Below are positions 1 through 62,774 of a stretch of DNA of 64,000 nt, piece after piece. The notes under the pieces are model-generated. The model was given only the letters and a program-made list of their open reading frames with translations, ran no database searches and was not told the DNA's origin. Positions within the stretch are counted from its first letter, which is position 1. Every line of letters begins with the position of its first letter. The position numbers and the translations under genes are program-made. Origin of the DNA: Cristatella mucedo (Eukaryota > Bryozoa > Phylactolaemata > Cristatellidae); the NCBI GenBank assembly GCA_009760855.2, contig WPIO01000170.1, positions 359,501-423,500 on the forward strand, read 5' to 3'.

Positions 1-1545
1 GACCTGCTTAAAACAAGTTAGTTCGGTGGCTGAGCACCAAGTGCTGGTGTGTGTGACGTTACAGTATCCGTCGTGTCGATTTAACCTTATGCCTCCGCCC
101 TTTTTTTATTCGTGGACCTGCCTTACTTCTCGGCTAGGTCGGATACAGATACGACGGTGCCTTTCGATTCTTGTGCTGTCGACGACCTTACCGTTAGCCT
201 GCTTAAAATAAGATATGTTAGATGGGCTTATGTTGATCGTGACTCTGCACGTATCTCGATCATGGCTGCCTGCAGCCGGCGTCCTTAACTGGCAAAAGAA
301 GCATAGGTGAGGAGGGCCTATAGAGACGTAGAGCTATAGAAGAGACGCGTTGCGCCAAGCAGTTCTCTAAAACTTACGCTACAGGCATGCTTTGAAGAAT
401 GTAACGGGCAACAAGCCACCACTTTTTTTGTGCATCGTAAATTTCGCTGTACCAGCACCCTGACAGTCACTTTCCGTCCTGCTGCCGAGTAATCTGCACT
501 CTGTAAGCAGTCAACGGTAATGTCCATCGTAGTCTGGAGACAGTTCGTGTATAAGTCCGACGTGAAGTCAAAGCTGTCTTTCGAAGGACCTTGCAGCTTG
601 GCACAATCGTTTCCTGATACGATTGTACTTTTAGAATGGGTCAGTGATGGCGCCCTTACCAAAGTCTCGCTTAAAACAAGCTAGCTTTCCCGGTGAAGCA
701 CCAGATGACGGTTTGGGTCGTCATAGTATCCTTTCCCTTGATTATGACGTTAGGCGTCTGCCTATTATCTTTTGTTGGACGGGGCTTGCAGCCCGATGTG
801 GACGGCGCCGGATACGACTTTGCTTTTTGATTCTTGTGCTGTCGACAGCTTTACGGTAGGCCTGCCTTAAATGAGCTACTTGGGCGGCCCTAATGTCCTC
901 TTAGACGCAGCAGATTTCTTGACTATGGCAGCAAGCAGGAGGCGGCCTCAACTTCACAACGGAGATTAGGTGTGGAGTGCCCACGGAGACAACATACCAT
1001 AGAAGAGATATATATACGTCGTGCTAAGCAGTAATGTAAAATCTAACCTATCGTCTTACTTTGAAGAACATGGGAGGCAAGAAGCAAGAACGTTGTTTGC
1101 ACAACGTAAATTGTACTGCACCGGTATCCCGACAGCTATTTTCTGTCCTGCTCTTCAGCCGACTATTTGACATTGAGTATACAATTAAGGGCAATGTGCA
1201 TCGTAGTCTGAAGACCGTGCGTTTGAACGTCCCATGTGAAGTCGAAGCTTCTGTTGTTTGCTGAGACGTACTCGTTTACCATATGCAGTCGGAAGTACAA
1301 AGGTACTACCGTAATCATGTTCCATATTCGGTAAACATTTAAGATCGTTACCTTAACAAGTAGGAAAGGAGAAGTGTCAGATGATGCTGATAACCTCGTG
1401 ATCATCCAAGTCAATGCAACGTATTTGGTCAGACAGAGTAGCAGTTATGTCGCCTAGCTTACCATGCAGGAAAAGAGAAGTATCAAATTATGCTGACTCC
1501 CTTGTGATCATGCTAGTTGATGCAACGTACGTGGACAGAAAAACT
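1..1545 (+). repeat. Edge copy of the complex ~1-kb repeat, inverted relative to the main array
   Basis: This block is the reverse complement of sequence repeated many times at 8.99-18.07 kb. Shared landmarks are the imperfect palindrome at 604-625 (CAATCGT arm, then ACGATTG), the segment at 540-600 matching the array sequence that follows each palindrome, and a short open frame at 644-859 whose product resembles those read on the - strand of the array. The inner end at about 1320-1545 carries a module (accession point for comparison: 16.09-16.25 and 17.33-17.48 kb, reversed) with two adjacent subcopies around 1365-1430 and 1465-1525. The left boundary is outside the window. I see no transposase or known family signature, so only the repeat relationship is asserted. 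Confidence 0.8.
604..625. repeat. Imperfect palindrome conserved in the complex repeat
   Basis: Left arm CAATCGT and right arm ACGATTG flank a short centre. The same palindrome recurs at about 9922, 10972, 12022, 13063, 14113 and 15141 in the tandem array. Its retention in every unit of both orientations makes it a useful phase marker; whether it does anything is unknown. Confidence 0.7.
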
Positions 1546-2380
1546 CGCTTACGTCTTTTTACTGCCCTCGCTGTGACTCGTCGATGAGCCTAAATCATGG
1601 AACAACGACAACAAATCTTTTTGAATTCACGGCTAGCTTAGAGCAGCAAGATCATTGGCCTTCTGGCCTATTTCATTTGGCATCCGCATGCTTTACAGTT
1701 TCACTCCGCGCGCACCTATCTGTTTTGAACTCTGTCCAGGTAGAGTAGCTCTCTCACTTTCCAATAACTCACTGACTCTTCATCGCTCTCTCATTCCTAA
1801 CCAGTGCACACGGCGTGCGTCCCTCCGGTAGGTCCTTTAGGAGCACTGCCTCTTACTGGCGTTCCGTAGGCCCGTGCCTTGCTTTGATGCTCTGCTAGGC
1901 GTATAGGCCTAAGGTTCTCTCAGTTCACCCCGGCGATCGTGCTGTTTAGCTTCCGCATCATCCACTTTATTTACCACTAAAATTTAGTAGATTGGCCGGC
2001 AGTGCCTTCACTTTACCGAGATTAAGAGCTTGCGAAGTCGTACAGACATATTTTTTTTTAACGTAATGTCACATCCGTATTGGAACGGGTACGCCTCGAT
2101 TTCAATGACATGCCATCCATAACATCTGAATGTGACTAGTATTGACATAATTGCGAGACAGTCGTTGAGTTTTCCCAGGTAGCTTTGTAGTTAGTTTCAT
2201 CATCGTGGCTGCTGGGTAGCCTGTATTGGTAACTCAGCTATTCATTCGACAAAGAATGGTGACCTGGTCATTTATAAATCGCTGCTTCTTCTATAGCACT
2301 GGAGCAATAGTGCGAAGAATGACGTTTGATTGTGGGTTGCATTGTGTTACAACTTACTGAAATGCACCTAGCAACATGAA
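1546..2380. other. Unassigned intergenic sequence
   Basis: No convincing coding frame, tRNA-like box pair, tandem repeat or recognised transposon was seen here. It separates the edge copy of the complex repeat from the dispersed repeat at about 2.39 kb. Confidence 0.4.
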
Positions 2381-2384
2381 GCAG

Positions 2385-2690
2385 TTAATCTCTGATTACA
2401 CACAACTTCAAGAAAAGTATCGCCATAATTTATAGGACACAGCTTCAACTGCAAGCCTTTCCGTTTGAAGCTCGGCGGTCTTGTATCTCTCATCGACGAT
2501 CAACTTGCTGGAAAACTCCTAACTGTGCATGTTTAGCTCCCATGGATTCGTTGAACACGCCCCTCTCATTTATCTCCCCTTTTGAGCTGTCAATCACTCT
2601 CCCTCAATCCCAGCAATGGCCATTCCTCAATCGCCACATTTCCAAGTGAGCTGTACCACTAGAGCTAAGAGCCGTAATCCCGTCTCAGCG
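2385..2690 (-). repeat. Dispersed repeat, inverted partner of 24.37-24.64 kb
   Basis: The reverse complement aligns by eye with 24365-24640. Anchors are GGCGATTGAGGA, a GATTGAGGGAG block, a TGATTGAC block, and a stretch beginning CCAGCAAGTTGATC followed by about 24 codons that align without indel or stop in either copy. In both copies the block begins right after TTCCAG, which resembles a 3' splice site. It could be a diverged interspersed element or a duplicated exon remnant; no protein family is recognised. Confidence 0.6.
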
Positions 2691-3343
2691 TAGGGTAACG
2701 CCGACATACTCCAAAAATAGTGCAGCTGTGGACACAGTTCGGCGTCTGGTATATGAAAAGCGATGGTCATTGATATGACGGTCAGTTAAACTCTTAAAAT
2801 ATTTGTCGTAAAATGCAACGATGCTCGCTGCTCTCATCACTAACCAGGAGTCGAGCGTCTATGAAGAGGCAGCAATGCAGGTCGTATCTAACGCTGCTAA
2901 CACATTCATTAAAGCTTTGATGAAACCTAGAATCTATTGCAGCGATCAGAGACACTCCACGGTTTTGCTACCATCGCGAGTAGTTCGCCGACCACGATTA
3001 AGATTAGGATGATGGCTCCGGAGAATCGAGAAGCAATCGATTCTCATTTTTCAACAACAATCGAATACTTCTGACGCCAATCGTTACGCCTGCGGGTAGC
3101 AGCTTCGGTACTGCAGTCGTTAACACCAAACACCCGCAGACAGCGAGTGGCGAGTAGTGATTGCTTGTCCTCAAAGACAAAAGCATCCTGACAGCAGTCC
3201 TGACTGAACACTGGCCTGGATGCTGCGGAGCGCGGCTCGTGAGTCGCACACCCAGAGCTAGCGCACCGTGGAGCGACCGAGCGTCGCGTACTCGCAGCTA
3301 GCTGAAGCAAGCAGATAGATGATCAAGTATCAAAATAATAACA

Positions 3344-3345
<2 letters not shown>
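2691..3345. other. Unassigned sequence, CpG-richer toward 3.3 kb
   Basis: An open - strand frame of 88 codons (3044-3310) lies in the CpG-richer part, but its product is not recognisable and it has no visible exon borders that I would defend. Otherwise nothing is supported here. Confidence 0.3.

Positions 3346-3380
<35 letters not shown>
3346..3380. repeat. (TA)n microsatellite
   Basis: An uninterrupted run of alternating T and A, about 17 units, lies just outside the A/T-rich end of the LINE tail that follows. Confidence 0.95.
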
Positions 3381-3383
<3 letters not shown>

Positions 3384-3424
3384 CCATGCACCATTCACGT
3401 GTACACTTGTGACTATTAAAACAA

Positions 3425-3895
3425 TAGTAATAATAATAATACCTTTGATATAGCACCCTCAGAGAACTCAATCTCTTTCTAGGCACTTTACATTCGCTGC
3501 AAAGGAAGCACCATCGAACAGTTAACGGTAGCGTGCTCAGTAAACAACAAGAATAGCATGGTTAGGGGTGACGTGCACTGGGTCAGAATGCAAGTGTGGT
3601 TAGTGGCAGCATGCACAGTGTCACCACGCATAAGCAGATAGAGAAAGTCAAATCGCAGGGACCCACTAAATGCTGTGATAAATAGATGGATGCGTGTTTA
3701 GCTTCTTTTTAAATGTGGTCAAGTTAGGAGATGTCGTTACGCAAGTTGGGAGTGAGTTCCAGGCCTCGAAACCATACGAACTAAAGGCACGGTCTCCAAA
3801 GGATTTGAGGCTCGTACGATGTGTGTGTAAGCAACTAGATTCCGAAAAGCGAGTGGTACGATGCTTATCCTGGTGGGGAGAAGAATAATTACGGA
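3425..3895 (-). mobile_element. 5'-truncated L2-like LINE, 3' end (ATT-tail subfamily)
   Basis: Read on the - strand this is the 3' end of a non-LTR retrotransposon. The conserved C-terminal protein signature is GDRAFSSYGFEAWNSLP, followed by LTTFKKKL. An untranslated tail follows, with the segment giving GGGTCCCTG, repeated GCATGCACAGTGTCAGCA-like motifs, and GAGTTCTCTGAGGG, ending in an ATT-type run (ATAATAATAAT on +, 3429-3441). The same order appears at 31.57-31.93 kb and 33.76-34.23 kb. It is non-functional because it lacks endonuclease and reverse transcriptase. Confidence 0.8.
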
Positions 3896-3904
3896 TTATA
3901 ATGA

Positions 3905-3946
3905 TTAATTAATGAATAAATAAATAAATAATAAATAAATAAATAA
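3905..3946. repeat. (AATA)n simple repeat
   Basis: Repeated AATA/AAATA units abut the truncated LINE end and may be part of the insertion scar or an expanded A-rich site. Confidence 0.85.
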
Positions 3947-4439
3947 GTTTCTGCTCCTATAGATTAGATCCCGATGCCAGCTGCATTTACTTCTACGATT
4001 CTGGAACACCTAACTAATCCCCATATCTGTAATTGAGGTAATATTAAAATCGCCCGGCGCTTCACCAGTAAAACCTCGATGTGCTACATCAGCCAGATCA
4101 TAATGTCCCTAGAGATTAGCTCCCGAATAAAAGAGTCTAGGAGCCGGAGATATCAAGGTGCATAATTTAGAATATTTAGCTGGAAATCTCAAGTACTGGT
4201 CATTCTGTTTTACTTTGGCTTCGATTTTTGAGTTATAGGCTATGGCTGGTGCTGAAAACGTGCAGCCACCCTGTGTGGCTTTTAAATATACCGTTGTACG
4301 CAAGGTTATTTAACTTTTATAATAAGGCATGGACGCTCTTACAATATAGTATACACATAAATCATGTGTATAGCACCTTACGAGAGCTAGATTTCTACCC
4401 AGACGCTTTAAATACATCGCAATGTAATGTAATGGATCT

Positions 4440-4655: not shown

Positions 4656-7300
4656 TTACCGCTGCCATGCTCTGCTACCGTCAGCCTACCTGCCTGTATC
4701 CAGACAGCATCTGCAACTTCGCTGGCCACGCTTCGAGGCACCGGCTCCGCCGGTACTTGTCCCGCATTTCAAATGACTGGCTCCGCTATGAGCACTGCCA
4801 TGAACACCGACTTAATATGTCTCGAGACGATCGTGGTGATCCACTCATCAGGAATCGAGCCTCCACCCAGAGGCGGCAAGGCGTCGAATGTGGCTGCTTT
4901 CAAGTTACTATCAGCTCGGATCGTGCCTAGAATCTGCTAGGACGATCGGAAACACTTCATGCTTTGGCAACCACCGGCCAGTTGTTTACTGCAAGAGTCT
5001 CGAGATGGCGATGATTTAATTACTGCAGTTGGAATCTCATTGGCATATGTACAGAGCTACTGAAATAAATTACATATTTCATTTTATGAAGCTAGCTATT
5101 TGCCAGCCTTCTTTATCGTTACCGCTTTGAAATTGGCAGTGTTTAAGTGGGCTCAGATTTAGTTCCTCTTAAGCTTTACTTGACACACCCCTTTCGTCCA
5201 GCATCGAAGCTCTGATGCCAGAAGCAGGTCTCGGATAGAAGAATGAGAGCTTTAGGCGATGTTCTAACGGTATTCAATAGCACTAACCAGGATTAGTGAT
5301 TAGTTATCCCTCTTAGCGAGCTGTGTCGCCAGTGCTATGAATCACAATTCCGGCTTGGGGTATGAAAACACATTTGGATTCGTCGTAGCCTGTGTTCCAT
5401 GTGCATAGAATACCTTGCTGTAGCTCAGGCGTCGAAATTTCAACAGCAGATGACAGAACTGCCTATTCCTACAGCAATGCCGCATGAACCCAGCATAGGG
5501 TTCACTGCTCCTTTGCCCACCTCGAAACTAGTTGCTTATCCAATGGTTTCTTGCTAAAACGAGTAGCACTTGAAGGCAAGGTTTCATTCTTACTATATAG
5601 CATGGATTGGCAGTGTTCTGCCCCCTCAAGCAGAGAGCTGCCTATTACCGGATATGTCGTTCATCCGAGAACCGAGTAACCAAGCTAGCCGCTTAGAGAC
5701 GGCTGCAGTGGCTGACGGTACCAAAGTCAGAGCCCACGCTTAATAAGTTTTTAGTCTCTGCATTACGCGTCGGTTCGCTTCGTCTGTCTGCTTCATTTTC
5801 TGTTGCAGGACCATACAATCCACAAAGAAATACATGCCTGGACGAAGTGGATCGACTATTTCACACACGGAATTTGCAGCCATTCCTTAGCTTCATCAGA
5901 TGGACACTGGCACGGTTGCTGCATTCTTAGTGGCGACAAGTAAAGGTTGGTGACGACACGAGCACGTTTGAGCTTGAAAAGAGTCGAAGTTGAGAACTAG
6001 GAAAGCTAGGAGACAATAGTCAATCAACTGTGGTGACACGAGAAATTTCTGCAACCCAGTTGGCTTGCTTGGCTGGTGCCACTTGCCCTGTCAATCAGAC
6101 AACTGCCATGGCATGCTGTTAGCTGGAGCACAGTGATAGCCGCCGGAGCATTCGGGTTTCCAAGTAGCCGGAGCCCCCTTAAAGAGGCGGAGCCGACAGA
6201 CCTGAGCAGACCGAGTGGTGGTGACACATAATCACAACCGATGGCTCAACTACTATCATCTTGTACGAAGGGTACTGCGATTTGCGTAGCAGCCAATCAA
6301 TTAATTAAGAAAAATTAGTGTCTAAAAGTGCTGCAGCTTCCAGGTCATCACTGATTCAATTCAGCACGGAACATCTGTTGAAGTGCCTAGTTCTGACGCT
6401 CTGTTGGGTATCGAATCATCGATACTTCGCTTAGTTTGAATATATTTTTCTTCTCGCACTATCCGATGCAAGCTGTAGAATCACGTGCTTGTCTAGCCAC
6501 AAAGGCAGAGCTTAATGTAAGTCCGGCCGAGTCCGTCGTTGAACGGTCCTCAAGCCAGGACCGGACTCGCAGAATTTGGCACGGCAGTGATGTTTCTTCG
6601 GCATTTTGCACTTTTCCAAATGATTTTATTCTCTCCGCTTCAGACGGCTGTGTAAGCAAAAGTCTGGAAGAATGTATTGGAACCTACAACATTGGGCTTT
6701 GTTCAGGTTAGAGGATCAACACAACCGTTTCCATAATTGTCGAGAGAGAGCACTGCACGCCGATGCCTTGTTTCGTGTCTTTCTTGCCTACTGAGGTACT
6801 CCACAGCGGCAACCACGGCTGGCCATCTTATTGTAGTTAGTTGCAAACAAGGATTCTCCAAAATCAGTAATTTTTCAGTATCCGAACCCCAATCTGTCAA
6901 CCTGCAGGTGCTCTAAAAAGTATCATTTGCAACTACCTATCACATTGAACCGGTCTTTATTTGGTTTCAACTAGAAACTTATTTTTTTGAATAATAATAT
7001 TGTGACTACTTAAAGGTCAGGCTACAGCCTATACATTTGTTGGGATAACGAAAGTTGATTCGTGTAAATGTACACGTGTACTATATTCTTAAAATAACTA
7101 TACACTAAACAAATATTATAATATGAGGCTATATGAGCAAAATCTTTTACCCAAATTCGCACAGGATGCACGGAGAGCCTGTCAATGTTGGCATTAATAA
7201 TATCCAATTTTAGAATCATAGCACCACAGTTGATGACTAGGGGCAACGGGAGCAGTTTTTGCTTATTCTTAAAAATTCCAGGTTGAGTCGATAGCATGAC
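4656..7300. other. Unassigned intergenic sequence
   Basis: No recognised gene or element. A frame of 91 codons at 6436-6711 is unassigned and reads through ordinary-looking sequence. Short CpG-richer patches occur near 6.05-6.23 kb. I see no tRNA-like boxes, tandem repeats or reverse transcriptase motifs. Confidence 0.35.
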
Positions 7301-7679
7301 AGTGGTAGGTAAATTACTATTCGGTAATTAGTACTCAGTATTAAGAAGCACACGCAACTATGGCATATACTTGAGGTTGTTCAAAGGCTCAGCTAAGAAT
7401 GTGATTCCTAACGTTTAGTACAATGCGGCCCAGTTTGCTTAAAGATAAGATACGTACCTTGGATCACGAAAATAGATGTTCTAAAAAGCAAGTAAAAAAA
7501 TCTGTTGGAGGTATTTCAGCTCTACGCCATGCAACTAGTCAAATCAATTGCAAGTGCAAGATGTTTACCTTTCCGTAATTATTGTCTGTAAAATTCCATC
7601 AAAAGTGCAAGCTTTTGCGCCTGAATCAGGGTAGCGTGCAGAATAGCTTTGAATATATTTCGCTAAGTACATGAGATTT

Positions 7680-7800
7680 TGGGGATAACATGTCTGAATG
7701 ATCATACTTTGTTAATCATTTAAGTACGATGATCTTGTCATTTATTATAATTGGCAAAAAGAGACATGCCCAGTGCTGCATCCCAATTTCATAGACGCAA
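7680..7800 (-). repeat. Fragment of an unclassified dispersed repeat
   Basis: The reverse complement of about 7690-7800 matches 28.92-29.04 kb, including the shared block ATGAAATTGGGATGCAGCAC and a following ATTAACA(A/G)AGTA block. The fragment may extend further left to about 7.3 kb but the match fades. It lies directly before the SINE at 7.9 kb. Confidence 0.6.
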
Positions 7801-7904
7801 GTTACCCCTAACTGTTATCAGTAAGACCTGCTTAATTACGGATAACGTGAAGTGGCTACTTCGCAGATAATCAAGTAACTTTGCTGTGCGCCCGCAGGCA
7901 GGAT

Positions 7905-8060
7905 TGCCGAGCTGGTTTGGTCTAGCGGTTAAGGTCTCTCCCCGACCAAATTCTGACTGAGGTCGTGTGGTCGAGCCTCGAGGCATATGTGAAGCGCATG
8001 AATAGAGACTAAATTCTCTTGGGGCGCTATATAAACGAATTATAAAAAATAAAAAAATTG
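7905..8060 (+). mobile_element. tRNA-derived SINE
   Basis: The head carries an A-box-like TGGTCTAGCGGTTAAGG and, about 50 bases on, a B-box-like GGTCGAGCCTC, the spacing of an RNA polymerase III promoter. After the head comes a short body and a tail reading TTCTCTTGGGGCGCTATATAAA followed by A-rich sequence. Five or more relatives are in this window (32.0, 44.1, 54.2, 57.6, 63.3 kb). The tail resembles the 3' end of the ATT-tail LINE, so that LINE is the likely source of the machinery that copied it. Confidence 0.85.
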
Positions 8061-8985
8061 GCATCGTTAAGCACCATCTAACATCTGTCATGAGCTATTG
8101 ACTAAGCACAGCTAATTAATACTTTCATCATATTATTCGTTGTTTTGTAGAAAGCTGCCAAACGATGAGCACAATACTCTGCCGTAGCACGAATTCTCAG
8201 ACTTTCGAGCAACCAATAGCTAACACCGCCTCTCGACTTAGGGTACAGTAATCTAAAAATACGGCCGACTATAGCCGCGTTATCAAGAAAGCAAGACAGA
8301 ACCGTTGGATAAGCAAGAAGAAAAGCTAACTGTGTTAAGATTGAAATCAGCTGAGAGCCTAGATTACGACTCACTTCAAAACGCACGAGTTACTACCCGT
8401 CGTATTTTAGCACTTGTCGTGCTACCTAATTGCGGCTGACTAAATATTATTGCTGACCCTTTTATAACTCGGATACTGTAAATAATGCATGAAACGTGTA
8501 CCTCGGTAGTGACCATCTGGTTTTGCAGCACTCCACCGTTTTACTGGTATATTTTATGTTACGGAGTGGCGAAGTTGATGACAAAATGAATTAGATAATA
8601 AGATAATAAGAATAAGAATAATAAAAACAAGAAATAAGATAATATATCGCTCCGAGTGCCAGAGAAACAAGAAATGTCACTAAGCCAGCACTTTACGATA
8701 CCTGCATGTATTTAGTAAATAAATGTTGAAACCTTTCTGTAAACACTGCTGTCGTTGAATTTTGCATGACGTTTTAGTCGGTAGGTAAATAAAATGTTGT
8801 TATGGAACTACAAAGTAGTTAAAAGATTCATCGATGCTGGCAAATAAATTCTTGCACGGCCTAAAGATATTTAAAAGCTGCGATGTAACATTGAGGGCAT
8901 CTCGTTTAAGACTACTTTGGACGCCAGCTCCGCAGTCGCCGCGAACCCATTTCTCTGCAGTGTGCCAACTGCCAACGTCGCTGTG
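8061..8985. other. Unassigned sequence with A-rich low-complexity patch
   Basis: An AATAAGAATAAGAATAAT-like low-complexity run lies at about 8592-8650. A - strand frame at 8102-8386 is unassigned. Nothing else is supported before the tandem array begins near 8.99 kb. Confidence 0.4.
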
Positions 8986-9381
8986 AAGACCTGCTGATTT
9001 CCCTGATTGCTAAATTTGAGTCAATTACCACAGCTGCAGGACGGACATTGATTTTCAGGGTACAGCTGCAGCGGAACTCACGGTGCACGAACAATGCGGA
9101 GGCTTCTTGCCAGGTTAATTCTTTGAAATGTGCTAATAGGATAAGTCTTATATTACTGGTTAGTACGACACGTCTTTTCTATAGCCTGTCGTCTCTGAGT
9201 GTCCTCCTGCATCAACTACACTGCTCTTGGGAGTCAAAGCCGCCGGCTGCTAGCTACCATGATCAGGGTATATGCTGCTTCAAGGATAACACGAGTGCCG
9301 CCCGGAAAGTTCGATGTAAGATGTCCAACGACGAGTCCGTTGACGATCCTAGAATCCGAAAGTCCTGTCCTATCCGGTGCG

Positions 9382-9906
9382 TTAGCTCGAAGCTGCTTGG
9401 CTGGTCCAAAAAATAATAATAGGCGGATGCATAACGGTAGAATCAACGTGACGGATTCTATAAAGGAACACACCATCAATAGGTGCTTCGTAACCGAGCA
9501 AGCTTATTTTAAGCACTTCATTGGTAATCGTGGCTTCGGATCCAGAAGCGATAGCTCCAACTTGCATGGCCCTTTCATAGAAAAGCAATAGGCAACCACC
9601 GTACGAGGAAATCGATGCAACTGCGTCTTTTGCAGCTTTTGCCGTGCCTGGTTGCCGAGCCGCCCAGGTAGCTCGTTTTAGGCAGGCCGACAGTAAGGCC
9701 GTCGACAGCACCAAACTCGGAAAGCAAAGTCGTATCCGGCGTCGTCCACACCGGACTGCCAGCCCCGTCCAACAAAAGATAACAGGCAGACGCCTAACGT
9801 CACAATCAAAGCGAAGGATACTATGACGGCCCACAACATCATCTGGTGCTTTACCGGCAAAGCTAGGTTTTTTTAAGCAAGACTTTGGTATGGGAGCCAT
9901 CACCAT
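9382..9906 (-). other. Open frame of 174 codons conserved in type B units
   Basis: Three B units keep a collinear - strand frame of 173-174 codons (here, 12523-13044 and 14601-15125). The predicted products align end to end without gaps apart from the first residue or two. A basic stretch ending in RRRIRLCF is followed by a hydrophobic LVLSTALLSACL, which could be a membrane segment. The product contains an internal echo: the DYDVRRLPIIFCWTGLA part resembles the later HVDSTVMHQPIIVFWTSQA part because of the ~190-base submodule. No family is recognised, no promoter is evident, and the frame may be open by chance in young repeats. Confidence 0.3.
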
Positions 9907-9921
9907 CCCTTTCTAAATGTT

Positions 9922-10971
9922 CAATCGTATCACGATACGATTGTGCCGAGCTGCAAGGTCCTTCGAATGACAGCTTTGACTTCACGTTTGACCTATACAC
10001 GAACGGTCTTCAGACTACGATGGACAATACCCTTGAGAGTTTACAGGGTGTAGATTACTCGGCAGCAGGACGGACAATGACTGTCATGGTCCAGGTGCAG
10101 TGCAATTTATGGTGCACAAACAAGGTTATGCCTTATTGCCAGTCACGTTCCTCATAGCACGCCAATAGGATAATTTTTAGATTACTGCTTAGCACAACAT
10201 GTCTCTCGTATAGCCTGTCGTTTCTGTAGGCCCTCCCCCACATAAACTCCTTTTTCCAGTTACGGACGCCGGCTACTTGCAGCCATGCACAAGATATGTG
10301 CTGAGTCACGAACAACAGAAGCCCCTCTTACATATTTCGTTATAAGCAGGTTAATGGTAAGGTCGTAGACTGCACGAGAATCGGAAACCACCGTCATATC
10401 CGGTGCAGTCCGTGCCAAGAAGTAAGCCTGGTCCACGAATAAAAACGGGCTGATGCATAAGGTTAAAATAGAGGCAACGGTACTGTGACGTCACACACCA
10501 TCACCGGGTCCTCAGCCACCGAACTACCTTTTTATAAGCATTTCATTGGCAATGGCACCGTCACTGACCCATTCAGAAAAGGGCTTCGGATCTAGAAGCA
10601 ATAGTGCCAAGTTGCATGGCCCTTCCATAGAAAAGCAATGTACAGCCACCATACCAGGAAATCGATGCACCGGCGTTTTTGGCAGCTTGTGCCAGGTGTG
10701 GTAGCAAAGCCGTCCAGATAGCTCGTTTTAGGCAGGCCGACAGTAAGACCGTCGACAGCACAAGAATAAGAAAGCAAAGTCGTATCCGGCGGCGTCCACA
10801 CCGGACTGCCAGCCCGGTCCAACAAAAGATAATAGGCAGACGCCTAACGTCGTAATCAAAGCTAAGGATACTATGACGGCCCACAACATCATCTGGTGCT
10901 TTACCGGCAAAGCTAGGTTGTTTTAAGCAAGACTTTGGTAAGGGCGCCATCACCATCCCTTTCTAAATGTT
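9922..10971 (-). repeat. Type A unit, copy 1
   Basis: Full unit between successive palindromes. It is nearly identical to the next unit; visible differences include CACGATACG against CACGAAACG at the palindrome, GAAGTAAGCC against GAAGGAAGCC, and AAGCATTTC against AAGTATGTC. The palindrome here is the best preserved, with 9-base arms (CAATCGTAT and ATACGATTG) around CACG. Confidence 0.9.
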
Positions 10972-12021
10972 CAATCGTATCACGAAACGATTGTGCCGAG
11001 CTGCAAGGTCCTTCGAATGACAGCTTTGACTTCACGTTTGACCTATACACGAACGGTCTTCAGACTACGATGGACAATACCCTTGAGAGTTTACAGGGTG
11101 TAGATTACTCGGCAGCAGGACGGACAATGACTGTCATGGTCCAGGTGCAGTGCAATTTATGGTGCACAAACAAGGTTATGCCTTATTGCCAGTCACGTTC
11201 CTCATAGCACGCCAATAGGATAATTTTTAGATTACTGCTTAGCACAACATGTCTCTCGTATAGCCTGTCGTTTCTGTAGGCCCTCCCCCACATAAACTCC
11301 TTTTTCCAGTTACGGACGCCGGCTACTGGCAGCCATGCACAAGATATGTGCTGAGTCACGAACAACAGAAGGCCCTCTTACATATTTCGTTATAAGCAGG
11401 TTAATGGTAAGGTCGTAGACTGCACGAGAATCGGAAACCACCGTCATATCCGGTGCAGTCCGTGCCAAGAAGGAAGCCTGGTCCACGAATAAAAACGGGC
11501 TGATGCATAAGGTTAAAATAGAGGCAACGGTACTGTGACGTCACACACCATCACCGGGTCCTCAGCCACCGAACTACCTTTTTATAAGTATGTCATTGGC
11601 AATGGCACCGTCACTGACCCATTCAGAAAAGGGCTTCGGATCTAGAAGCAATAGTGCCAAGTTGCATGGCCCTTCCATAGAAAAGCAATGTACAGCCACC
11701 ATACCAGGAAATCGATGCACCGGCGTTTTTGGCAGCTTGTGCCAGGTGTGGTAGCAAAGCCGTCCAGATAGCTCGTTTTAGGCAGGCCGACAGTAAGACC
11801 GTCGACAGCACAAGAATAAGAAAGCAAAGTCGTATCCGGCGGCGTCCATACCGGACTGCCAGCCCGGTCCAACAAAAGATAATAGGCAGACGCCTAACGT
11901 CATAATCAAAGCGAAGGATACTATGACGGCCCACAACATCATCTGGTGCTTTACCGGCAAAGCTAGGTTGTTTTAAGCAAGACTTTGGTAAGGGCGCCAT
12001 CACCATCCCTTTCTAAATGTT
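10972..12021 (-). repeat. Type A unit, copy 2
   Basis: Direct neighbour of the preceding unit at an exact 1050-base step and about 99% identical to it, indicating the most recent amplification step in the array. It contains, like its neighbour, four phase markers of the ~190-base submodule. Confidence 0.9.
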
Positions 12022-13062
12022 CAATCGTATCACGAAACGATTGTGCTAAGCTGCAAGGTCTTTCGAAAGACAGCTTCGACTTCACGTCAGACTTTTACAC
12101 AAACGGCCTTCAGACTACGATGGATATTTCCCTGATTGCTAAATTTGAGTCAATTACCACAGCCTCAGGACGGACACTGATTTTCAGGGTACAGCTGCAG
12201 TGGAACTCACGGTTCACGAACAATAATGAGGCTTCTTGCCAGGTTAATTCTTTGAAGTGTGCCAATAAAATAAGTCCTATATTACTGGTTAGCACGACAC
12301 ATCTTTTCTATAGTCTTTTCTATAGTCTGTCGTCTCTGTGTGCCCTCCTGCATCACCTACACTGCTCTTGGGAGTCAAAGCCGCCGGCAGCTAGCTACCA
12401 TGATCAGGGTATATGCTGCTTCAAGGATGACACGAGGGCCGCGCGGAAAGTTTGATTTAAGATGTCCAACGACGAGTCTGTTGACGGTCCTAGAATCCGA
12501 AAGTCCTGTCTTATCTGGTGCATTAGCTCGAAGCTGCTTGGCTGGTCCAAAAAACAATGATAGGCTGACGCATAACAGTTGAGTCAACGTGACGGATTCT
12601 ATAAAGGAACACACCATCAATAGGTGCTTCGTAACCGAGCAAGCTTGTTTGAAGAACTTCATTGGTAATCGCGGCTTCGGATCTAGAGTCGATAGCTCGA
12701 AGTTGTATGGCCCTTTCATGGAAAAGCAATGGGCAGCCACCGTACGAGGAAATCGATGCAACGGCGTCTTTTGCAGCTTGTGCTGTGTCTGATTGCCGAG
12801 CCACCCAGGTAGCTCGTTTTAGGCAGGCCGACAGTAAGGCCGTCGACAGCACAAGACTCGGAAAGCAAAGTCGTATCCAGCGTCGTATATACCGGGCTGC
12901 AAGCCCGGTCCAACAATAGATAATAGGCATACGCCTAACGTCATAATCAAGGCGAAGGATACTATGACCTCCCATACCATCATCTGGTGCTTCACCGGCA
13001 AAGCTAGCTTGTGTTAGGCAGGACTGTGGTAACCGAGCCATCACTAACCCATTCTACAAGTA
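12022..13062 (-). repeat. Type B unit
   Basis: After the palindrome the unit switches to the B-specific segment (12118-12450). On the - strand it keeps an open frame of 173 codons (12523-13044), matching those in the other B units. Confidence 0.85.
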
Positions 13063-14112
13063 CAATCGTATCACGAAACGATTGTGCCGAGCTGCAAGGT
13101 CCTTCGAAAGACAGCTTTGACTTCACGTTTGACCTATACACGAATGGTCTTCAGACTACGATGGACATTACCCTTTAGAGTTTACAGGGTGTAGATTACT
13201 CGGCAGCAGGACGGACAAAGACTGTCATGGCCCAGTTGCAGTGCAATTTATGGTGCGCAAACAAGGTTATGCCTTTTTGCCAGTCACATTCCTCATAGCA
13301 CGCCAATAGGATAATTTTTAGATTACTGCTTAGCACAACATGTCTCTCGTATAGCCTGTCGTTTCTGTAGGCCCTCCCCACATAAACTCCTTTTTCCAGT
13401 TAAGGACGCCGGCTGCTGGCAGCCATGAACAAGATATGTGCTAAGTCACGAACAACAGAAGCCCCTCTAACATATTTCGTTTTAAGCAGGTTAATGGTAA
13501 GGTCGTCGACTGCACGAGAATCGGAAACCACCGTCATATCCGGTGCCGCCCATGACAAGGAGTAAACTTGGTCCATGAATAATAATAGGCGAATGCATAA
13601 GGTTAAAATAGAGGCAACGGTACTGTGACGTCAAACACCATCACCGGGACCTCAGCCACCGAACTAGCTTGTTTTAAACACGTCATTGGTAAAGGCACCG
13701 TCACTGACCCATTCGGAAAAGGGCTTCGGATCTAGAAGCGATAGTGCCAAGTTACATGGCCCTTCCATAGAAAAGCTATGGGCAGCCGCCGTACGAGAAA
13801 ATCGATGCACTGGAGTTTTTTTGCAGCTTGTGCCATGTCTGGTTGCCAAGCCGCCCAGATAGCTCGTTTTAGGCAGGCCCACTGCAAGGCCGTCGACAGC
13901 ACAAGAATCAAAAAGCAAAGTCGTATCCGGCGCCGTCCATACCGGACTGCAAGCCCTGTCCAACAAAAGATAATAGGCAGACGCCTAACATCATAATCAA
14001 GGCGAAGGATACTATGACGGCCCACACCATCACCTGGTGCTTCACCCGCAAAGCTAGCTTGTTTTAAGCAAGACTTTGGTAAGGGAGCCATCAATAACCC
14101 TTTCTAAATGTT
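13063..14112 (-). repeat. Type A unit, copy 3 (diverged)
   Basis: Same order of blocks as the two near-identical A units but with many substitutions and small indels. The - strand frame is 120 codons and ends differently from its counterparts. Confidence 0.85.
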
Positions 14113-15140
14113 CAATCGTATCACGAAACGATTGTACCAAGCTGCAAGGTCCTTCGAAAGACAGCTTTGACTTCAACTCAGACTTTTACACGAACGGTCT
14201 TCAGAATACGATGGATATTTCCCTGATTGTTTAGTTCGAGTCAATTACCACAGCTGCAGGACGGACACTGATTTTCAGGGTACAGCTGCAGCGGAACTCA
14301 CGGTACACAAGCATGTGGAGGCTTCTTGCTAAGGAAATTCGTTGAAGTGTGCCAATAGGATAAGTCTTATATTACTGGTTAGCACGACATGTCATTTTTA
14401 CAGCCTGTCGTCTCTGTGTGCCCTCCTGCATCACCTACACTGCTCTTGGGAGTCAAAGCCGCCGGCTGCTAGCTACCATGATCAGGGTATATGCTGCTTC
14501 AAGGATGACACGAGGGCCGCCCGGAAAGTTTGATTTAAGATGTCCAACGACGAGTCCGTTGACCGTCCTAGAATCCGAAAGTCCTGTCCTATCCGGTGCG
14601 TTAGCTCGAAGCTGCTTGGCTGGTCCAAAAAACAATAGTAGGCTGATGCATAACGGTAGAATCAACGTGACGGATTCTATAAAGGAACGCACCTTCAATA
14701 GGTGCTTCGCAACCGAGCAAGCTTGTTTTAAGAACTTCATTGGTAATCGCGGCTTCGGATCCTGAAGCGATTGCTCCAAGTTGCATGGCCCTTTCATAGA
14801 AAAGCAATGGGCAGCCACCGTACGAGGAAATCGATGCAAATGCGTCATTTGCAGCTTTTGCCTTGTCTGGTTGCCGTGCCGCCCAGGTAGCTCGTTTTAG
14901 GCAGGCCGACAGTAAGGCCGTCGACAGCACAAGACTCGGAAAGCAAAGTCGTATCCGGCGTCGTCCACACCGGGCTGCACGCCCGGTCCAACAATAGATA
15001 ATAGGCATATGCCTAACGTCATAATCAAGGCGAAGGATACTATGACGGCCCATACCATCACCTGGTGCTTCACCGGCAAAGCTAGCTTGTGTTAAGGAGC
15101 ACTTTGGTGAGGGCGCCATCACCATTCCTTTCTAAATGTT
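14113..15140 (-). repeat. Type B unit, copy 3
   Basis: B-specific segment after the palindrome (14200-14530) and a 174-codon - strand frame (14601-15125). It is 22 bases shorter than the 1050-base step, owing to small deletions. Confidence 0.85.
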
Positions 15141-18074
15141 CAATCGTATCACAAAACGATTGTGCCAAGCTGCAAGGTTCTTTCGAAAGACAGCTTTGAC
15201 TTCACGTTTGACTTATACACGAACGGTCTTCAGACTATGATGGATATTATCCTTGAGTGTTTACAGGGTGTAGGTTACTCTGCAGCAGGTCAGACAATGA
15301 CTGTAAGGGTCCAGGTGCAGTGGAATTTACGGTGAGCAAAAAGGTGGTGGATTTTTGCCAGTCACATTCTTCGGACCACGCCTGTAGGATAATTTTTAGA
15401 TTACTGCTTAGCACAACACGTCTCTCCTATAGCCTGTCGCTTCTGTACGCCCTACCCCACGTAAACTCCTATTTCTAGTTAAGGACGCCGGCTGCTGGCA
15501 GCCATGAACGAGATATGTGCTGAGTCACGATTAACATAAGCCCCTCCGGTATCTCGTTTTAAGCAGGCCAATGGTAAGGTCGTCGACTGCACATGAATCG
15601 GAAGGCACCGTCTTATCTGTATCCAACCTAGCCGAGATGTAAGGGTGGTCCATGCCGTCACTAACCCGTTAGGAACGCATCGTCGTATCGGAAAAATTGT
15701 GTGCCAAGCTGCAAGAGCATTCAAATGAAAAGGGATGGGCTTGCACCACACGAGGAAATCGATGCGACCTCAACTTTGGATTCTCTGGCCGTCACTGGGT
15801 ACCGAACCGCCCAAATAGGTTATTTCAAGCAAACAAGCAATACGGCAGCCAAAACCAAGCCTTTAAAAAAGCATCGTCGTATCCCTTACTGCTAATTCTG
15901 GGCTGGTGGACCCTTCCAAACAAGGAGAATTGGCAGAGGTCAGACATCAAAATTGACAAATCACCAACTCTGCAACAGCATGCCGTCTTCAAGTACAGTG
16001 CAGCTCAGATAACAGGTTTGTAAGAACCAGCCGTAAGGCAAGAGATACAACGCCCACAAACACATCACAAGGCTATCAGCTGCAATTTACTTTTCAGTTT
16101 AACTACCCAGTGAGCCAGGATTGCTAACAGTTACCCTGTCAGTCCCCATACGTTGGATTAACTTGGACGATCGTAAGGTTATCAAGCACTGCTAACACTT
16201 CTCTTCTCCTACTTGGGTAAGCTAGTATTCCTAAATGTTTAAAAAACGTGTGAACGTACTCACGGTATTACCTTCGTACTACTATCTGCTTCAGGCAGAC
16301 GAGTACGTCTTAGCAACAAACTGCAGCTTAGACTTCACATGTGACGTATACACATACGGTCTTCAGACTACGATGGACGTTCCCTTGATTGTTTACGGAT
16401 TGTCAATTACTCGGCTGAAGGACAGACAATTATTATTGAGGTCCAGCTGCAGAGCAATTCACGGTGCTCAAATAGGGTGGAACCTTCATGCCCATTACGT
16501 TCTTCGAAGTATGCCGATACAGTAGGTCTTAGATCACTGCTTCGCTCGAGGGGTCTTTTCATTAGCCTGTCGTCTCTGTATGCCCTCCCCCACCTACACT
16601 CCTCGGTGCAGTCGAGGCCGCCGGCTGCTAGCTGCCACGAGCAAGGTATGTGCTGCTTCAAACAAATTATGAGGACCATCCAGATAGCTCGTTTTAAGAG
16701 GGCCAACGGTAAGGCCGTCGACGGCACAAGAATCGATAAGCACTGTCCTATCCGGTGCCGTTCGCTCCGGGCGGCAAGCCCGGTCCAACAAAATATTATG
16801 GTTGGACGGATAACGGTAAAATCAACTCGATGGACACTGTGACTGCAAACACCATTAATAGGTGCTTCGCCACCGAGCTAGCTTTTTTTAAGCACGTCTT
16901 TAGTAATGACGCCATCACTAACCCATTCGAAATGAGGCTTCGTATCTAGAAGCGATTGTGCTAAGGTGCAAGGCCCTTACAAAGAAAACGAATGGGCAGG
17001 TGCCAATCACAGAAGTCAATGCGACGGCAACTTTGGAGCGTGATCTTTCACTGGCTAGCGAGCTGCCAAGATAGCTTGTTTCTAGCAAACGATCGATACG
17101 GCGCCAAAACTAGGATTATTAAAAGTTTCATCGCATCCCTCGACACCTCTGCCGGTCTGCCGGACCCTTTCAAACAAAATAAACTGGCAGAAGCAGTACA
17201 TAAAAATCGATAGACCTCTAACTTTGAAAGCATGCCTTCATCGCATACAGTGCAGCTAAGATAGATGGATTACAGGAAGCCATCGGCAAGGCAAGCGATA
17301 CCACACTAACTTACATGATTAATGGACTATCAGCAGCATCTGCTACTTTTCTTTTCCTGCATGGTACCTCGGATTCTTAATTGTTACCCTGTGCATCCCC
17401 ATATATTGCATTAACTTGGATGGTCGTGAGGTTACCAGCAACTGCTAACATCTCTAAGCAAGCTGGTATTCTTTGATATTTACCAAACCGGTGAACGTTC
17501 TTCTTGTTCTTAAATGTCTTCCAAATATATTAACTTCCTTACGGTATTACCTTGGTACTACGATTAGCTTCAGGCAGACGAGTGCGCCATAGCAACAAAC
17601 TGGAGCTTCGACTTCACCTTTGACGTATACACGTACAGTCTTCAGACTACGATGGGCATTCACCTGCTTTTTTTACTGGTGTCAATTACGACGGCGGCAG
17701 GACAAACGATGATTGTTGGAGTACAGATGCAAAGCTAATCACGGTGCACAAACAAGGTGGAGGCTTCTTGCCAGTTAAATTTTTCGAAGTATGCCGATAG
17801 GGTAATATTTAGATTACTGCTTAGCATGACACGTCTTTTATATAGCCTGTCATCTCAGTACACCCTCCCCCACCTAAACTCCTTTTTGCAGTCAAGGCCG
17901 CCGGCATCTAGGTGCAACGATCATTATATGTGCTGCGTCAAGAACGACATAAGGGCAGCAGTGATAGTTCGTTTTAGGAGGGCCAACGGTAAGGCCATCG
18001 ACGGCCCAAGAAACGGAAAGCGCCCTCGCATCCGGCGCCTTTCGCTCCTGGCAGCAAGCCTGGTCCAACAAAAA
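15141..18074 (-). repeat. Diverged distal part of the array
   Basis: Starts as a type A unit but drifts after about 15.7 kb. It contains two copies of a module absent from the central units, at about 16.09-16.25 and 17.33-17.48 kb (shared GGATTAACTTGGACG / GCATTAACTTGGATG blocks), each followed by a recognisable unit start. The inverted edge copy at 1-1545 has the same module-then-unit order, so it derives from this more divergent subtype. The array stops at the LINE tail at 18.08 kb. Confidence 0.75.
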
Positions 18075-18318
18075 ATTTAGGACACCATTTAGTGGGTCCC
18101 TGGGATTCGTCCTTCACGTGCTTATGCGTGCTGACACTGTGCATGCTGACACTAACCACATTTGCATGCTGACCCTGTGCATGTCACCCCTAACCATGTT
18201 ATTCATTTTGTTTGTTTTTCAAGCATGATTTTACTTAACATTCTATTGCATTTCGCTTTGCAGCAAATTTAACGTGCCTACAAAGTGATTAAGTTCTCTG
18301 AGGGCGCTTTATCAAGTA

Positions 18319-18356
<38 letters not shown>

Positions 18357-21839: not shown

Positions 21840-24180
21840 GCTGCCAATTGGCAATATACCTAATTGTAACTGTTATGCTCCAACAGTCGGTCCACGCACG
21901 ATCAATCTTCGCCTCTTCGATCGTGAATATGCCGGGAATTGTGGTATTGTCCCAGGACATTGCTGTCGATTGCCGTTCATTGCTCGCGATTGTAAGTGAA
22001 CGATTGGTTGATAGGATTTGGTTGCACTTTTAACACAATGGACTGTGACAGGTAAGATATATTTTATCTTCGCTCAGTCACTTCCAGTGATTTTTGATGG
22101 CCCATAACGGGTTGCCGTATTTGCCCGCGCCAGTGCCGTCGGTTGCCATGACTTTCTCAAAATTGAGCGGCCAGAGCTGAAAAGTATGTGCTCGAGCAGT
22201 TAGGCGCTACGTGGAGTGAGAATTGGAGCTTGATGCAGCCAATTTCTCTTCGATTTGCAACGGATTTTGGTATTGGTCCCTGCCATTGCTGTCGATTGCT
22301 GTGTATTGTTGACAACTGCCATAGAAACAGCTTGAGAGTCTTACGATTTTACTTTTAGAACAAATAAATGTGAAATACGATGACAATCAGCAGTTCGTGC
22401 AGCCAAGTTAGTGTCAACTTGCCACGGATTGTAGTTGATTGCTGCTTCGAGCCGAGCCATTACCATAGATTGCCATACATTGCCCGAGATTTTACGAGTG
22501 CAATTGCTTAAAATAATGTGGTTGACTTTAACCAGAGTGTCTTGTAACATGCATTAAAATTAGAGCATTGCAAAACGAATTACAGGGCATTTTGCATCCG
22601 ATTGCTGTAAATTGAGGTATTGGCCCGGCTCATGCAGGCGATTGCAGTGCATTGCTGCCTAATGATAAAGGCGATTATAGTGGAATTGCGGGATTACACA
22701 GTAAAAAAGTATAGCAACGTTCAATCACTATTAGAGCTTGCAATGTACGTATGCTGGTCAATTATTTGGCGGGTTGCCATACATTGACGTACTGACCCTG
22801 GCAGTTGCAATCGATTGTAGGCATTGCTGCAGAATGTCCATGGCAATTACGGTGAAGTTATGCGAGGACACAATAACCGAAGATTAGGGAAGCTTGCAAT
22901 CATAATTAGAGCTTCTAGTGTACGCATTCTTCCGTTCTCGCTTCGTGGCGGATTGCGGCGGATTTCGGCGGATTGAGTTGGATTGTAGTATGGGACCGGG
23001 TCGTTGCAGTCGATTGCAATTCATTGCATGAGAACGCATGTGCATAATGGAGCGAAATTTTGTGGATGCACTTTGAACTGAGTCTAGTCCTCTGTGCAAT
23101 GTCAATTAGTGCGTCACGATGGCGATTTGAGGATGCTTTGCAGTGGAATAAAGTGTATTGCAGTAGTTTTCCAGGTCATTTCAGGCAATTGCCGCCCATG
23201 GCTTCAGTGCGAGGTTACACAATTTTTTTTCCTCAGTTGTGCATACAGCACGGTGCACTTTAATATCAAATTGAAAACTGGAGCTGGGCGAAATGTATTT
23301 CGATTGTGTACGCGGTGGAATCGTGGATTGAAGTGGATTATAGGCATAGGCTCCTGCAGTCGATTGCAGCACATTGCATGATAACGGCCGTGCCAATGCA
23401 AGTGAAAATTTGTAAATGCAATTGCCACAGAATGCGCAGTCATATGCAATCAACAAGAAGCATTTCGATCAGGATTTCCTTCGTTGCATGGTGGAACGTA
23501 GTGGATTTCGATGGATTGTGGTATTGGCCTGGGCCACTGCAATCTTATTTCAGTGGACTTAATGATAATAATAATAATAATAATACACTTGATAAAGCGC
23601 CCTCAGATAACTTAATCACTTTGTAGGCGCGTTAAATTTGCTGCAAAAGAAAATGCAATTGAATGTTAAGTAAAATAATGCTTTAAAAGCAAACACAATG
23701 AATAATATGGTTAGGGGTGACATGCACAGGGTCAGCATGCAAATGTGGTTAGTGGCAGCATGCACAGTGTCAGCACGCATAAGCATATATGCAGACTTCG
23801 TGAGAACTCATGAACGGAATCACGCGAAATCTTCTGGGTACATTTTGCATGTTGTTTTTAATATTTCAAACTTTCTGGAGCTGTGCGAAGCTGATTTGTG
23901 GTGGATTTGACGGGAACTAGAATGGATTGCGGTGGATTGTGGTGGATTGCGGTGGATTTCGGAACATTCTTACGGCGTCAAAGCTTATTCGCATAAGTGC
24001 ACGTGCTCGGAGCGACATGAAATTTTGTGGACAGATAAATTTGAACGCATACTACAATATCAGCGCCAAATTTAAGCTCGGCAATGCTTACGTCTGGTCA
24101 TTGCTGGCCTAATTAGAGTGGATTGCGGTGGATTGCAGTGGATTTCAGTAGATTTGAGTAGATTTCGGTGTACTGCGGCG
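21840..24180. repeat. Decayed repeat field rich in GGATTGCGGT-like decamers
   Basis: Blocks such as GATTGCAGT, CATTGC and GCAATTGC recur across about 2.3 kb. Larger diverged units are visible: a shared order of 'attagagctt', a GGATTG run, 'ttgcagtcgattgca' and 'cattgcatga' occurs around 22.73-22.86, 22.9-23.06 and 23.29-23.46 kb. The clearest decamer runs are at 22942-22986, 23922-23962 and 24115-24172. Unit borders are blurred by substitution, so this is an old array. A LINE tail is inserted at 23.56-23.79 kb. Confidence 0.6.
23556..23795 (-). mobile_element. L2-like LINE 3' tail (ATT-tail subfamily)
   Basis: On the + strand it opens with ATAATAATAATAATAATAA, then CACTTGATAAAGCGCCCTC, and later two GCATGCACAGTGTCAGCA-like motifs ending near the CGCATAAGCATAT block. 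It is the reverse complement of the tail at 31.69-31.93 kb. It interrupts the GGATTGCGGT-type repeat field, so it is younger than that field. Confidence 0.85.
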
Positions 24181-26699: not shown

Positions 26700-27542
26700 T
26701 TTAATGCTTCTGTGGGAAAAGGTGTCGTCCCCAAGTACTTCAAATCGGCAATCGCTTGACCCATACTTAAAAAGCCTGGATTAGATACAGGGGTCCTTGC
26801 AAACTACCGCCCAGTTTCCCTTCTTCCTTTCTTGTCAAAGATTCTTGAAAACATTATTGATAGGCAGCTGGTTGAACAAATTAAAAAGAATTAAATGTCA
26901 GATGCATTTCAATCAGGGTTCAAGAGGCAGCACTCAACTGATACTGCTCCCCTTCGCGTTAACAACGATATTCTACGTGGCAACGGTGACTGGAATGTCA
27001 CTGCTCCAGCTCTGCTAGATTTTTCTGCTGCCTTCGACTCCATTGATCACAATGTTCTGCTTGAACGATTGAGAACAACGATCGATCTGGCAGACGAAGC
27101 ACTGGCGTGGTTTAAATCGTACTTGTCTGATCGTTTTCATGCCGTGTCCTGTGGGGGTCATTTCTCATACACGACACGGGTCACCAGTGGAGTTCCTCGA
27201 GGGTCTGTACTCGGTCCCTTGCTGTTCTCCATTTATATTCAACATCTGGGAAAAGTGATTAAGGCCAGTGGAATAGGATATCACTTTTATGCTGACGCTA
27301 CTCAGCTGTATTTGTCATTCAAACCGTCGAAATCTGCTGCAGCCACTGAGAAACTGAATGCCTGCCTTGCCGCAATTCAATCCTGGATGTCGGAAAACTA
27401 CTTAAAATTAAATGACGATAAAACCGAACTGCTGCTCATAGGACACCCTAAGCGTTTGGGTGGATTAAAAGGCTTCGCTCTTCTAATAGGTGATGCTATA
27501 CTGCGACCATCACTACGTTCTCGAAATTTAGGTGTCGTTTAA
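26700..27542 (+). pseudogene. LINE reverse transcriptase domain with YADA catalytic motif
   Basis: Order of motifs: NYRPVSLLPFLSKILE, FQSGFKRQHSTDTA, LLDFSAAFDSIDHNVL (motif A, catalytic Asp kept), SGVPRGSVLGPLLF (motif B) and FYADATQLYL (motif C). In motif C the second Asp of the usual YADD is Ala, codon GCT at 27297-27299; the equivalent in the second copy is YADD. An in-frame stop precedes MSDAFQ (about 26892). The 215-codon open stretch 26895-27542 covers motifs A to C and ends in a stop after LGVV. The altered motif C alone would be expected to abolish polymerisation. Confidence 0.85.
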
Positions 27543-45563: not shown

Positions 45564-45564
<1 letters not shown>

Positions 45565-46632: not shown

Positions 46633-46634
<2 letters not shown>

Positions 46635-46726: not shown

Positions 46727-46729
<3 letters not shown>

Positions 46730-62770: not shown

Positions 62771-62774
62771 TTAC

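Follow-up and report, generated by a model that had tools for sequence, protein, structure and literature searches.

A local satellite-like array in Cristatella mucedo with a macro-domain gene fragment as its probable seed

In a 64,000-nucleotide stretch of the Cristatella mucedo genome (contig WPIO01000170.1, here C78, positions 359,501 to 423,500; hereafter the window, whose own numbering we use), we identified a tandem array at 8997-18076 by self-BLAST and unit alignment. Its core is homologous to an exon and adjoining intron sequence of macro-domain (PARP14-like) genes on C33. The array is very likely a local satellite-like repeat that was seeded by a fragment of such a gene and grew by unequal exchange. 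We use "satellite-like" rather than satellite DNA proper because the array form was found only at C78:344-378 kb, in genome searches whose counts are lower bounds.

Layout of the array and its surroundings

The units are arranged head to tail and fall into two types, A and B (Table 1). Long direct self-BLAST matches, with a reported E of 0, occur at offsets 1029, 2079, 3129, 4170 and 5220, and 10-mer offset counts peak at 1050 (1279), 3141 (645) and 2091 (499). Alignment of a single unit to the region placed unit starts at 9971, 11021, 12071, 13112, 14162 and 15191, and thus steps of 1050, 1050, 1041, 1050 and 1029 bases; a preliminary description, made from the sequence alone, had reported two types of about 1,050 bp with marker spacings of 1050, 1050, 1041, 1050 and 1028. 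The aligned units also reproduce the order that it gave, B-A-A-B-A-B-A, in which the first B is 5'-truncated from 8997 and the last A is partial. Among 15 chosen unit pairs, A1 and A2 are 98.9% identical (about 99% in the earlier account), A2 shares 84.4-92.2% with three other A units, B units share 90.5-91.3% with each other and A-B identity is 74.9-76.9%. Identity is therefore higher within than between types, with a multi-unit period and one A-A step that interrupts strict alternation. The two types diverge most over the first ~690 unit bases (59-86% identity by bin) and have the final ~290 bases in common (85-95%). Units at 15654-18076 are longer (period ~1257-1280) and more diverged (72-77% in the pairs compared), so the earlier remark that divergence grows toward 18 kb was correct. 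The TRF output for the window, in which the longest period given is 500, does not contain the array, and scans of the window detected neither a tRNA nor, at gathering scores, any Rfam match.

Related sequence in inverted orientation lies ~7.2 kb to the left of the array, at about -319 to 1811 and hence reaching ~319 bp beyond the left window edge, so that the two orientations face each other around a spacer. The right and inverted arrays have 48 exact bases in common, and the inverted long-type copy carries ~355 bp of extra C33-like upstream intron at 1457-1811. Direct copies are present ~22 kb upstream (about -14775 to -13364, C78:344725-346136). A single place holds six or seven short units, two long ones and fragments. 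On the right the array breaks off at 18075/18076, against a dispersed repeat; the (ATT)n end of this copy and the existence of truncated copies suggest a LINE-like element. Dispersed repeat copies adjoin the array or occur close by. A LINE-type reverse transcriptase match (Pfam RVT_1) was also recorded.

Table 1. Features of the array and its borders, in window coordinates
Feature	Position	Strand	Basis
Inverted repeat copies: A-like unit, X from 576; long-type unit, X from 1249	1..1811	-	
Unit B1, 5'-truncated, begins at ~unit position 56	8997..9970	+	self-BLAST, unit alignment
Unit A1, 1050 bp; exon remnant ~9966-10166, one stop	9971..11020	+	
Unit A2, 1050 bp, 98.9% to A1; exon remnant ~11016-11216, one stop	11021..12070	+	
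Unit B2, 1041 bp; exon remnant ~12072-12257, open where matched, splice sites gone	12071..13111	+	
Unit A3, 1050 bp; exon remnant ~13116-13307, two stops	13112..14161	+	
Unit B3, 1029 bp; one stop in its exon remnant (peptide match weak, E 0.018)	14162..15190	+	
Unit A4, 3'-truncated; exon remnant, one stop	15191..15617	+	
Older long unit 1: Z 15654-16323, X from 16324, Y block 16676-16985	15654..16985	+	
Core homologous to C33 genes: intron end, 228-bp exon, next intron start	16126..16652	+	
Exon remnant of older long unit 1, in two frames	~16295-16518	+	
Older long unit 2, partial: Z 16986-17603, X; exon remnant ~17577-17798, one stop	16986..18076	+	
Dispersed repeat copy, ends in (ATT)n, right boundary of array	18075..18356	+	

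Related exons on C33 and the distribution of the repeat

The preliminary description could link the unit to no known family, a statement that no longer holds. Searched as DNA, the unit core matches eight places on C33 (best E 2.6e-56), and the exon peptide matches eight exons there (E 7e-47 to 5.2e-17) and 13 places on C78 (10 at E <= 0.001, best 1.4e-10). On C33 the core corresponds to a 228-bp exon, a multiple of three, with splice sites: AG before, GTAAG after and an open frame are present in seven of the eight copies. The pooled pN/pS is 0.35 (28 pairs), and tree-counted changes in the seven intact copies fall 32/22/63 on codon positions 1/2/3 (p=8e-6). The exon is under purifying selection, although its identity is barely above that of its flanks (80.8 vs 79.5%). 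A 3' UTR was first assumed because open frames stop just upstream of the C33 match, but the codon-position signal and the splice sites show an exon.

The C33 source genes are macro-domain genes. A same-strand macro match begins 1.35-1.56 kb upstream (start to start) of five of the eight exon copies. In loci L036 and L037 we detected Pfam Macro matches (E 1.4e-11 to 2.5e-10); L037 also carries another macro-like frame downstream (E 2.1e-4, 21.7 bits vs a cut-off of 22). The source genes match PARP9 in PDB (E 2.7e-8) and, once and below the cut-off, KH (E 0.045). PARP catalytic matches (PF00644) occur within or next to the cluster, at 5329933, 5409981 (with one stop) and 5465593. Two of the three, those at 5329933 and 5465593, are 23.6 and 25.3 kb downstream of same-strand exon copies and may share a gene with them. 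The exon peptide itself had no PDB match at E <= 1 (3-row profile), and two exon frames had no Pfam match above the cut-off.

In an unrooted exon tree, which would fit a gene-fragment seed, the 8 C33 copies split from 12 C78 copies with 98% support; six A-type copies are set apart with 96% and three B copies with 100%. On C33, however, the ~300-bp Y block and a large part of Z are matched only by one weak 42-base stretch, and more than half of the unit is therefore unexplained by the gene. This missing counterpart would suit a satellite-like repeat that came first and was then captured as an exon by the C33 genes, as would the tree in giving no direction of copying. Such a capture is nevertheless very unlikely, as the C33 copies sit at one place within homologous gene units and have conserved splice sites and low pN/pS, the C78 copies are broken, and the matching block takes in intron on both sides.

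Four genome searches returned 17, 17, 28 and 23 matches. Except for one on C665 (E=5.4), these lie on C78 or in one C33 region, and nothing within reach of the searches makes the unit an ordinary part of a known transposon. At E <= 0.001, three DNA searches and one peptide search retained only C78:344-378 kb and C33:4.60-5.44 Mb, the latter a region of 0.84 Mb. Given this confinement, it is very unlikely that the array belongs to a transposable element as its tandem portion (a foldback-like element, a Helitron or LINE 5' monomers), although copies in both orientations flank a spacer and dispersed repeats abut the array or lie near it. Homology among the C33 copies also continues into macro-domain frames, the alignments made show no common termini, the inverted pairs lack one common axis, and dispersed copies with fixed termini were not found in the genome searches, which give lower bounds.

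State of the exon copies near the window

None of the 13 copies near the window retains the frame together with both splice sites. The ~1.05-kb units have lost the 5' end of the exon and its acceptor, AG and GT still stand at the exon borders in the units at 16324 and 17604, and the matched stretch is open in B1, B2 and the A-like inverted copy. The pooled pN/pS is 0.71 over 11 of the 13 copies, leaving out the truncated 8997 unit (u9p) and l-13447; the latter was also omitted from the identity comparison, codon-position test and trees. The codon-position test, which has little power on such short units, used codons after position 45 for A and after 90 for sets with B. After position 90, array changes fall 57/59/71 on the three positions (p=0.40) and those of intact C33 copies at the same codons 20/16/32 (p=0.047); after position 45, the counts are 20/23/28 for A units (p=0.50) and 27/20/48 for intact C33 copies (p=0.0012). 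As this contrast is weak on matched codons, the case for decay rests mainly on the lost splice sites and frames.

The same data bear on a functional gene in which the array copies form a tandem exon cassette. An exon length divisible by three, the copies open across the matched part and the slightly highest third-position rates in each array group, in a test of weak power, would agree with it. The loss of exon 5' ends, acceptors and frames and the non-significant codon-position signal make it highly improbable, as does identity, which in exons is not above that of flanks for type A (83.7 vs 86.8%, the 11021 unit being omitted from the pairs) or type B (88.3 vs 89.2%), though it is in three long copies (73.7 vs 67.6%). 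Open frames in the array, such as 8910-9413 +, 11967-12452 + and 9385-9912 -, were not read as genes, because the frames of related units contain stops. A search of C78:300001-423500 turned up no KH-like or macro part, and C78 has no Macro or PARP catalytic match among the matches listed. Since the exon copies lack combined frame and splice sites, the array is most likely without a protein product or a selected function, and it is probably not a working element.

Proposed origin and comparison with known repeats

Under the gene-seeded origin that we favor, a piece running from the end of one intron through the 228-bp exon into the following intron would have arrived and been joined to the Y block and much of Z, sequence not traced to the gene. 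The joined sequence may then have multiplied in tandem, in units of ~1.26-1.28 kb. Rearrangement would have produced a shorter unit of ~1.05 kb, in which the exon is truncated and Y-type blocks number two, and this unit would have diverged into types A and B, before misaligned exchange amplified a B-A pair into a dimeric higher-order repeat and one recent single-unit duplication gave A1/A2. The dimeric pattern and the 98.9% duplication fit the unequal exchange proposed in the preliminary description; the exchange itself we infer. That the array is instead an assembly artefact is scarcely credible: false tandem expansion would suit a single array locus and the near-identical A1/A2, whose copy number could still be wrong, but it does not make the ~8-27% divergence of the other compared pairs, and further copies lie ~22 kb away and inverted.

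In its head-to-tail units, dimeric pattern and inverted parts, the array resembles satellite DNA with higher-order repeats. In the available sections of one account, such repeats in beetles are usually dimeric, complex ones include inverted monomers and extraneous sequence, and satellite seeds are exemplified by rDNA spacers and transposons, though in theory any sequence could serve (PMC5615363). The array differs in having few units at one place, not an abundant family, and in its seed, a protein-gene exon with intron. Our literature search on gene-seeded satellites found nothing directly on point.

Drosophila Su(Ste) and human D4Z4 are likewise tandem copies containing or derived from gene sequence. 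These arrays have known expression or small-RNA roles; here, by contrast, the longest exact match to C33 is 21 bases, to one copy, with at most 17 for the other seven, which argues against trans-silencing of the C33 genes. There is only the slimmest chance that the pseudo-exon arrays in both orientations are transcribed into dsRNA or piRNA-type small RNAs that brake an expanding PARP14-like family or an unseen closer relative.

PARP14-like genes duplicate frequently, often nearby on the chromosome, for example in lancelet, according to the available part of PMC4245714. The C33 cluster is alike in its repeated, closely spaced macro-domain genes with PARP catalytic matches in or beside it; near the window, by contrast, we found just one decayed exon with bits of intron. 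The array does not indicate a new system: its mechanism is ordinary, and the gene-fragment seed is less usual. The locus illustrates a gene scrap turning into a satellite-like repeat while its seed is still recognisable. Because related exons remain intact and under selection elsewhere in the genome, this one locus lets rearrangement, the splitting into types and the amplification of the dimer be followed. The array also suggests that often-duplicating PARP14-like families leave such debris.

Layout and unit types of the array

The window covers bases 359501-423500 of contig C78 (WPIO01000170.1). Its self-comparison detected a head-to-tail array at window positions 8997-18076, and counting 10-mer offsets gave peaks at 1050, 3141 and 2091. 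When one 1050-bp unit was aligned to the region, units started at 9971, 11021, 12071, 13112, 14162 and 15191, so the unit spacings of the preliminary description are correct to within one base; its unit order, B-A-A-B-A-B-A, was also confirmed. The segments X at 16324 and 17604 are more diverged in this alignment and belong to older, longer units. Units of ~1.05 kb consist of segment X, a Y-like block, a short link and a second Y block, and the long units of X, Y and a longer Z. The array ends on the right at 18075, where a copy of a dispersed repeat family begins that terminates in (ATT)n at 18356; we infer that this family is LINE-like.

Among 15 chosen pairs of aligned units, identity between A units is 98.9% for A1/A2, 92.2% for A2/A3, 89.1% for A2 and an A unit of a second array to the left, and 84.4% for A2/A4; B units are 90.5-91.3% identical to each other and A is 74.9-76.9% identical to B. 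By bin, A and B share 59-86% at unit positions 1-690 and 85-95% at 760-1050. The units thus form a dimeric higher-order pattern, with the A1-A2 pair as sole exception.

Further copies of the repeat are inverted (about -319..1811) or direct (about -14775..-13364; negative coordinates lie left of the window). In B-unit coordinates, the left array stops at ~84 and the right one starts at ~56, with ~22 kb between them; the two may once have been one array that is now in two parts. Both direct arrays are broken inside the same part of the B unit (about -13364 and 8997), with an overlap of ~28 bases. The break points give the impression of an insertion or rearrangement of ~22 kb inside a single B unit. 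An inverted pair of ~2.8-3.6 kb sequence lies at 5210-8055 and -18369..-14779 (two blocks, 96.9% and 88.9% identical), and one copy stops 3-4 bases from the left array. Repeats in the GC-rich stretch listed below are (CGC)13, (GCT)n, (CT)46 and one of 21 bp; the stretch is perhaps a promoter or first-exon region.

Other features detected in the window
Feature	Positions	Evidence
Dispersed repeat family, varying length, both orientations	3420-3904, 18075-18356, 23560-23789, 31471-31936, 33758-34242, 56760-56860, 62441-62778	Self-comparison
Reverse transcriptase fragment, 215 aa, open	26895-27542	Pfam RVT_1, E 1.9e-19
GC-rich stretch	45564-49083	Up to 64% GC, CpG o/e 1.1-1.4

Genomic distribution and proposed source genes on C33

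In searches of the genome (572 Mb in 688 contigs), with counts that are lower bounds, the window A unit gave at least 17 matches (15 on C78, 2 on contig C33), a C33 copy at least 17 (10 on C33, 7 on C78) and the long units at least 28 (20 on C78, 8 on C33; best C33 E 2.6e-56). As far as these searches reach, copies occur at only one array locus and in a single 0.84-Mb region of C33. When the limit was relaxed to E 10, the peptide of the exon matched 23 places, of which 9 are on C33 (8 exons plus a partial one), 13 on C78 (10 at E <= 0.001; best 1.4e-10) and 1 on C665 (E 5.4).

On C33, the stretch matching X is a 228-bp exon with AG before, GTAAG after and an open frame in 7 of 8 copies; in the eighth copy, one base is missing and the acceptor is altered. 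The C33 copies differ from one another with an excess of third-position substitutions in this stretch. Counted on the tree, changes at positions 1, 2 and 3 of the codon number 32, 22 and 63 for the intact 7 copies (p=8e-6) and 46, 30 and 75 for all 8 (p=3e-5); pooled pN/pS is 0.35 (28 pairs). Exon and near flanks hardly differ in overall identity (80.8 vs 79.5%); the signal sits in the codon positions.

Homology among the C33 copies extends more than 2 kb upstream, into long open frames; the one nearer to the exon encodes a macro domain (Pfam, E 1.4e-11 to 2.5e-10; among PDB entries, PARP9 matches best, E 2.7e-8). In 5 of the 8 exon copies a macro match is present upstream on the same strand, at a start-to-start distance of 1.35-1.56 kb. 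One locus (L037) has a second macro-like frame downstream, slightly below the Pfam cut-off. PARP catalytic matches lie at 5.330, 5.410 (one stop) and 5.466 Mb of C33. Because of these macro frames and catalytic matches we name the source genes PARP14-like; the macro and PARP parts may belong to one transcript. Duplication of PARP14-like genes is described as frequent, with copies often close together, for example in lancelet (a passage in PMC4245714).

Upstream of the exon copy in L016 (C33:5029501-5039500; reverse strand, about 1-4368) are several kb of short-period minisatellite-like sequence enclosing a LINE-like frame; no macro match was among those listed near this copy. C68:58-336 kb holds a further cluster of Macro and PARP catalytic matches, in which the exon-peptide search did not find the 228-bp exon.

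Decay and relationships of the C78 copies

None of the 13 exon copies aligned from C78 (two truncated) is intact, since the ~1.05-kb units have lost the exon 5' end and acceptor, and the 16324 and 17604 units, the only ones that keep both AG and GT, carry a frameshift and a stop, respectively. Pooled pN/pS is 0.71 (11 of 13 copies). By codon position, 57, 59 and 71 changes were counted (12 copies; codons after position 90; p=0.40), against 20, 16 and 32 in the C33 control on the same codons (p=0.047); after position 45, C33 gives 27, 20 and 48 (p=0.0012) and A units 20, 23 and 28 (p=0.50). The codon-position test leans towards decay but is weak alone because the control on the same codons gives a reduced contrast; the splice-site and frame losses bear the argument. 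Some C78 copies are open across the matched part, and in every array group the rate at third positions slightly exceeds the rates at the other two, perhaps a remnant from before decay.

The core (the exon with adjoining intron ends) gave a tree, read as unrooted splits, in which 8 C33 copies separate from 12 C78 copies with 98% support. The C78 copy nearest to C33 is the inverted long copy with X from 1249 (95% for the split that unites it with the C33 copies). Six A-type copies group at 96%; the three B copies form a group at 100%, to which the 17604 unit attaches at 90%. The tree gives no direction of copying, which we infer from the intact C33 genes.

Proposed origin of the array

Most likely, an intron-exon-intron fragment was placed at the C78 locus. 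It would have been multiplied along with other sequence, and rearrangement would then have produced the shorter unit. Continued turnover by unequal exchange would explain why amplification is dimeric, why the 3' block is homogenised and why the A1-A2 pair is young; a function is not required to explain the array. At the inverted long copy, the match to the upstream C33 intron extends ~355 bp further. The gene fragment would account for less than half of the unit: one weak 42-base match is all that was obtained at C33 for the Y block and a large part of Z.

The array behaves like a small version of a satellite with higher-order structure but, within the reach of the genome searches, lacks the abundance of satellite DNA, and is therefore termed satellite-like. 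Examples of satellite seeds in a passage of PMC5615363 are rDNA spacers and transposons, any sequence being possible in theory, and our literature search gives no basis for calling an exon seed new. We regard the array as a well-explained case and not as a new kind of structure.
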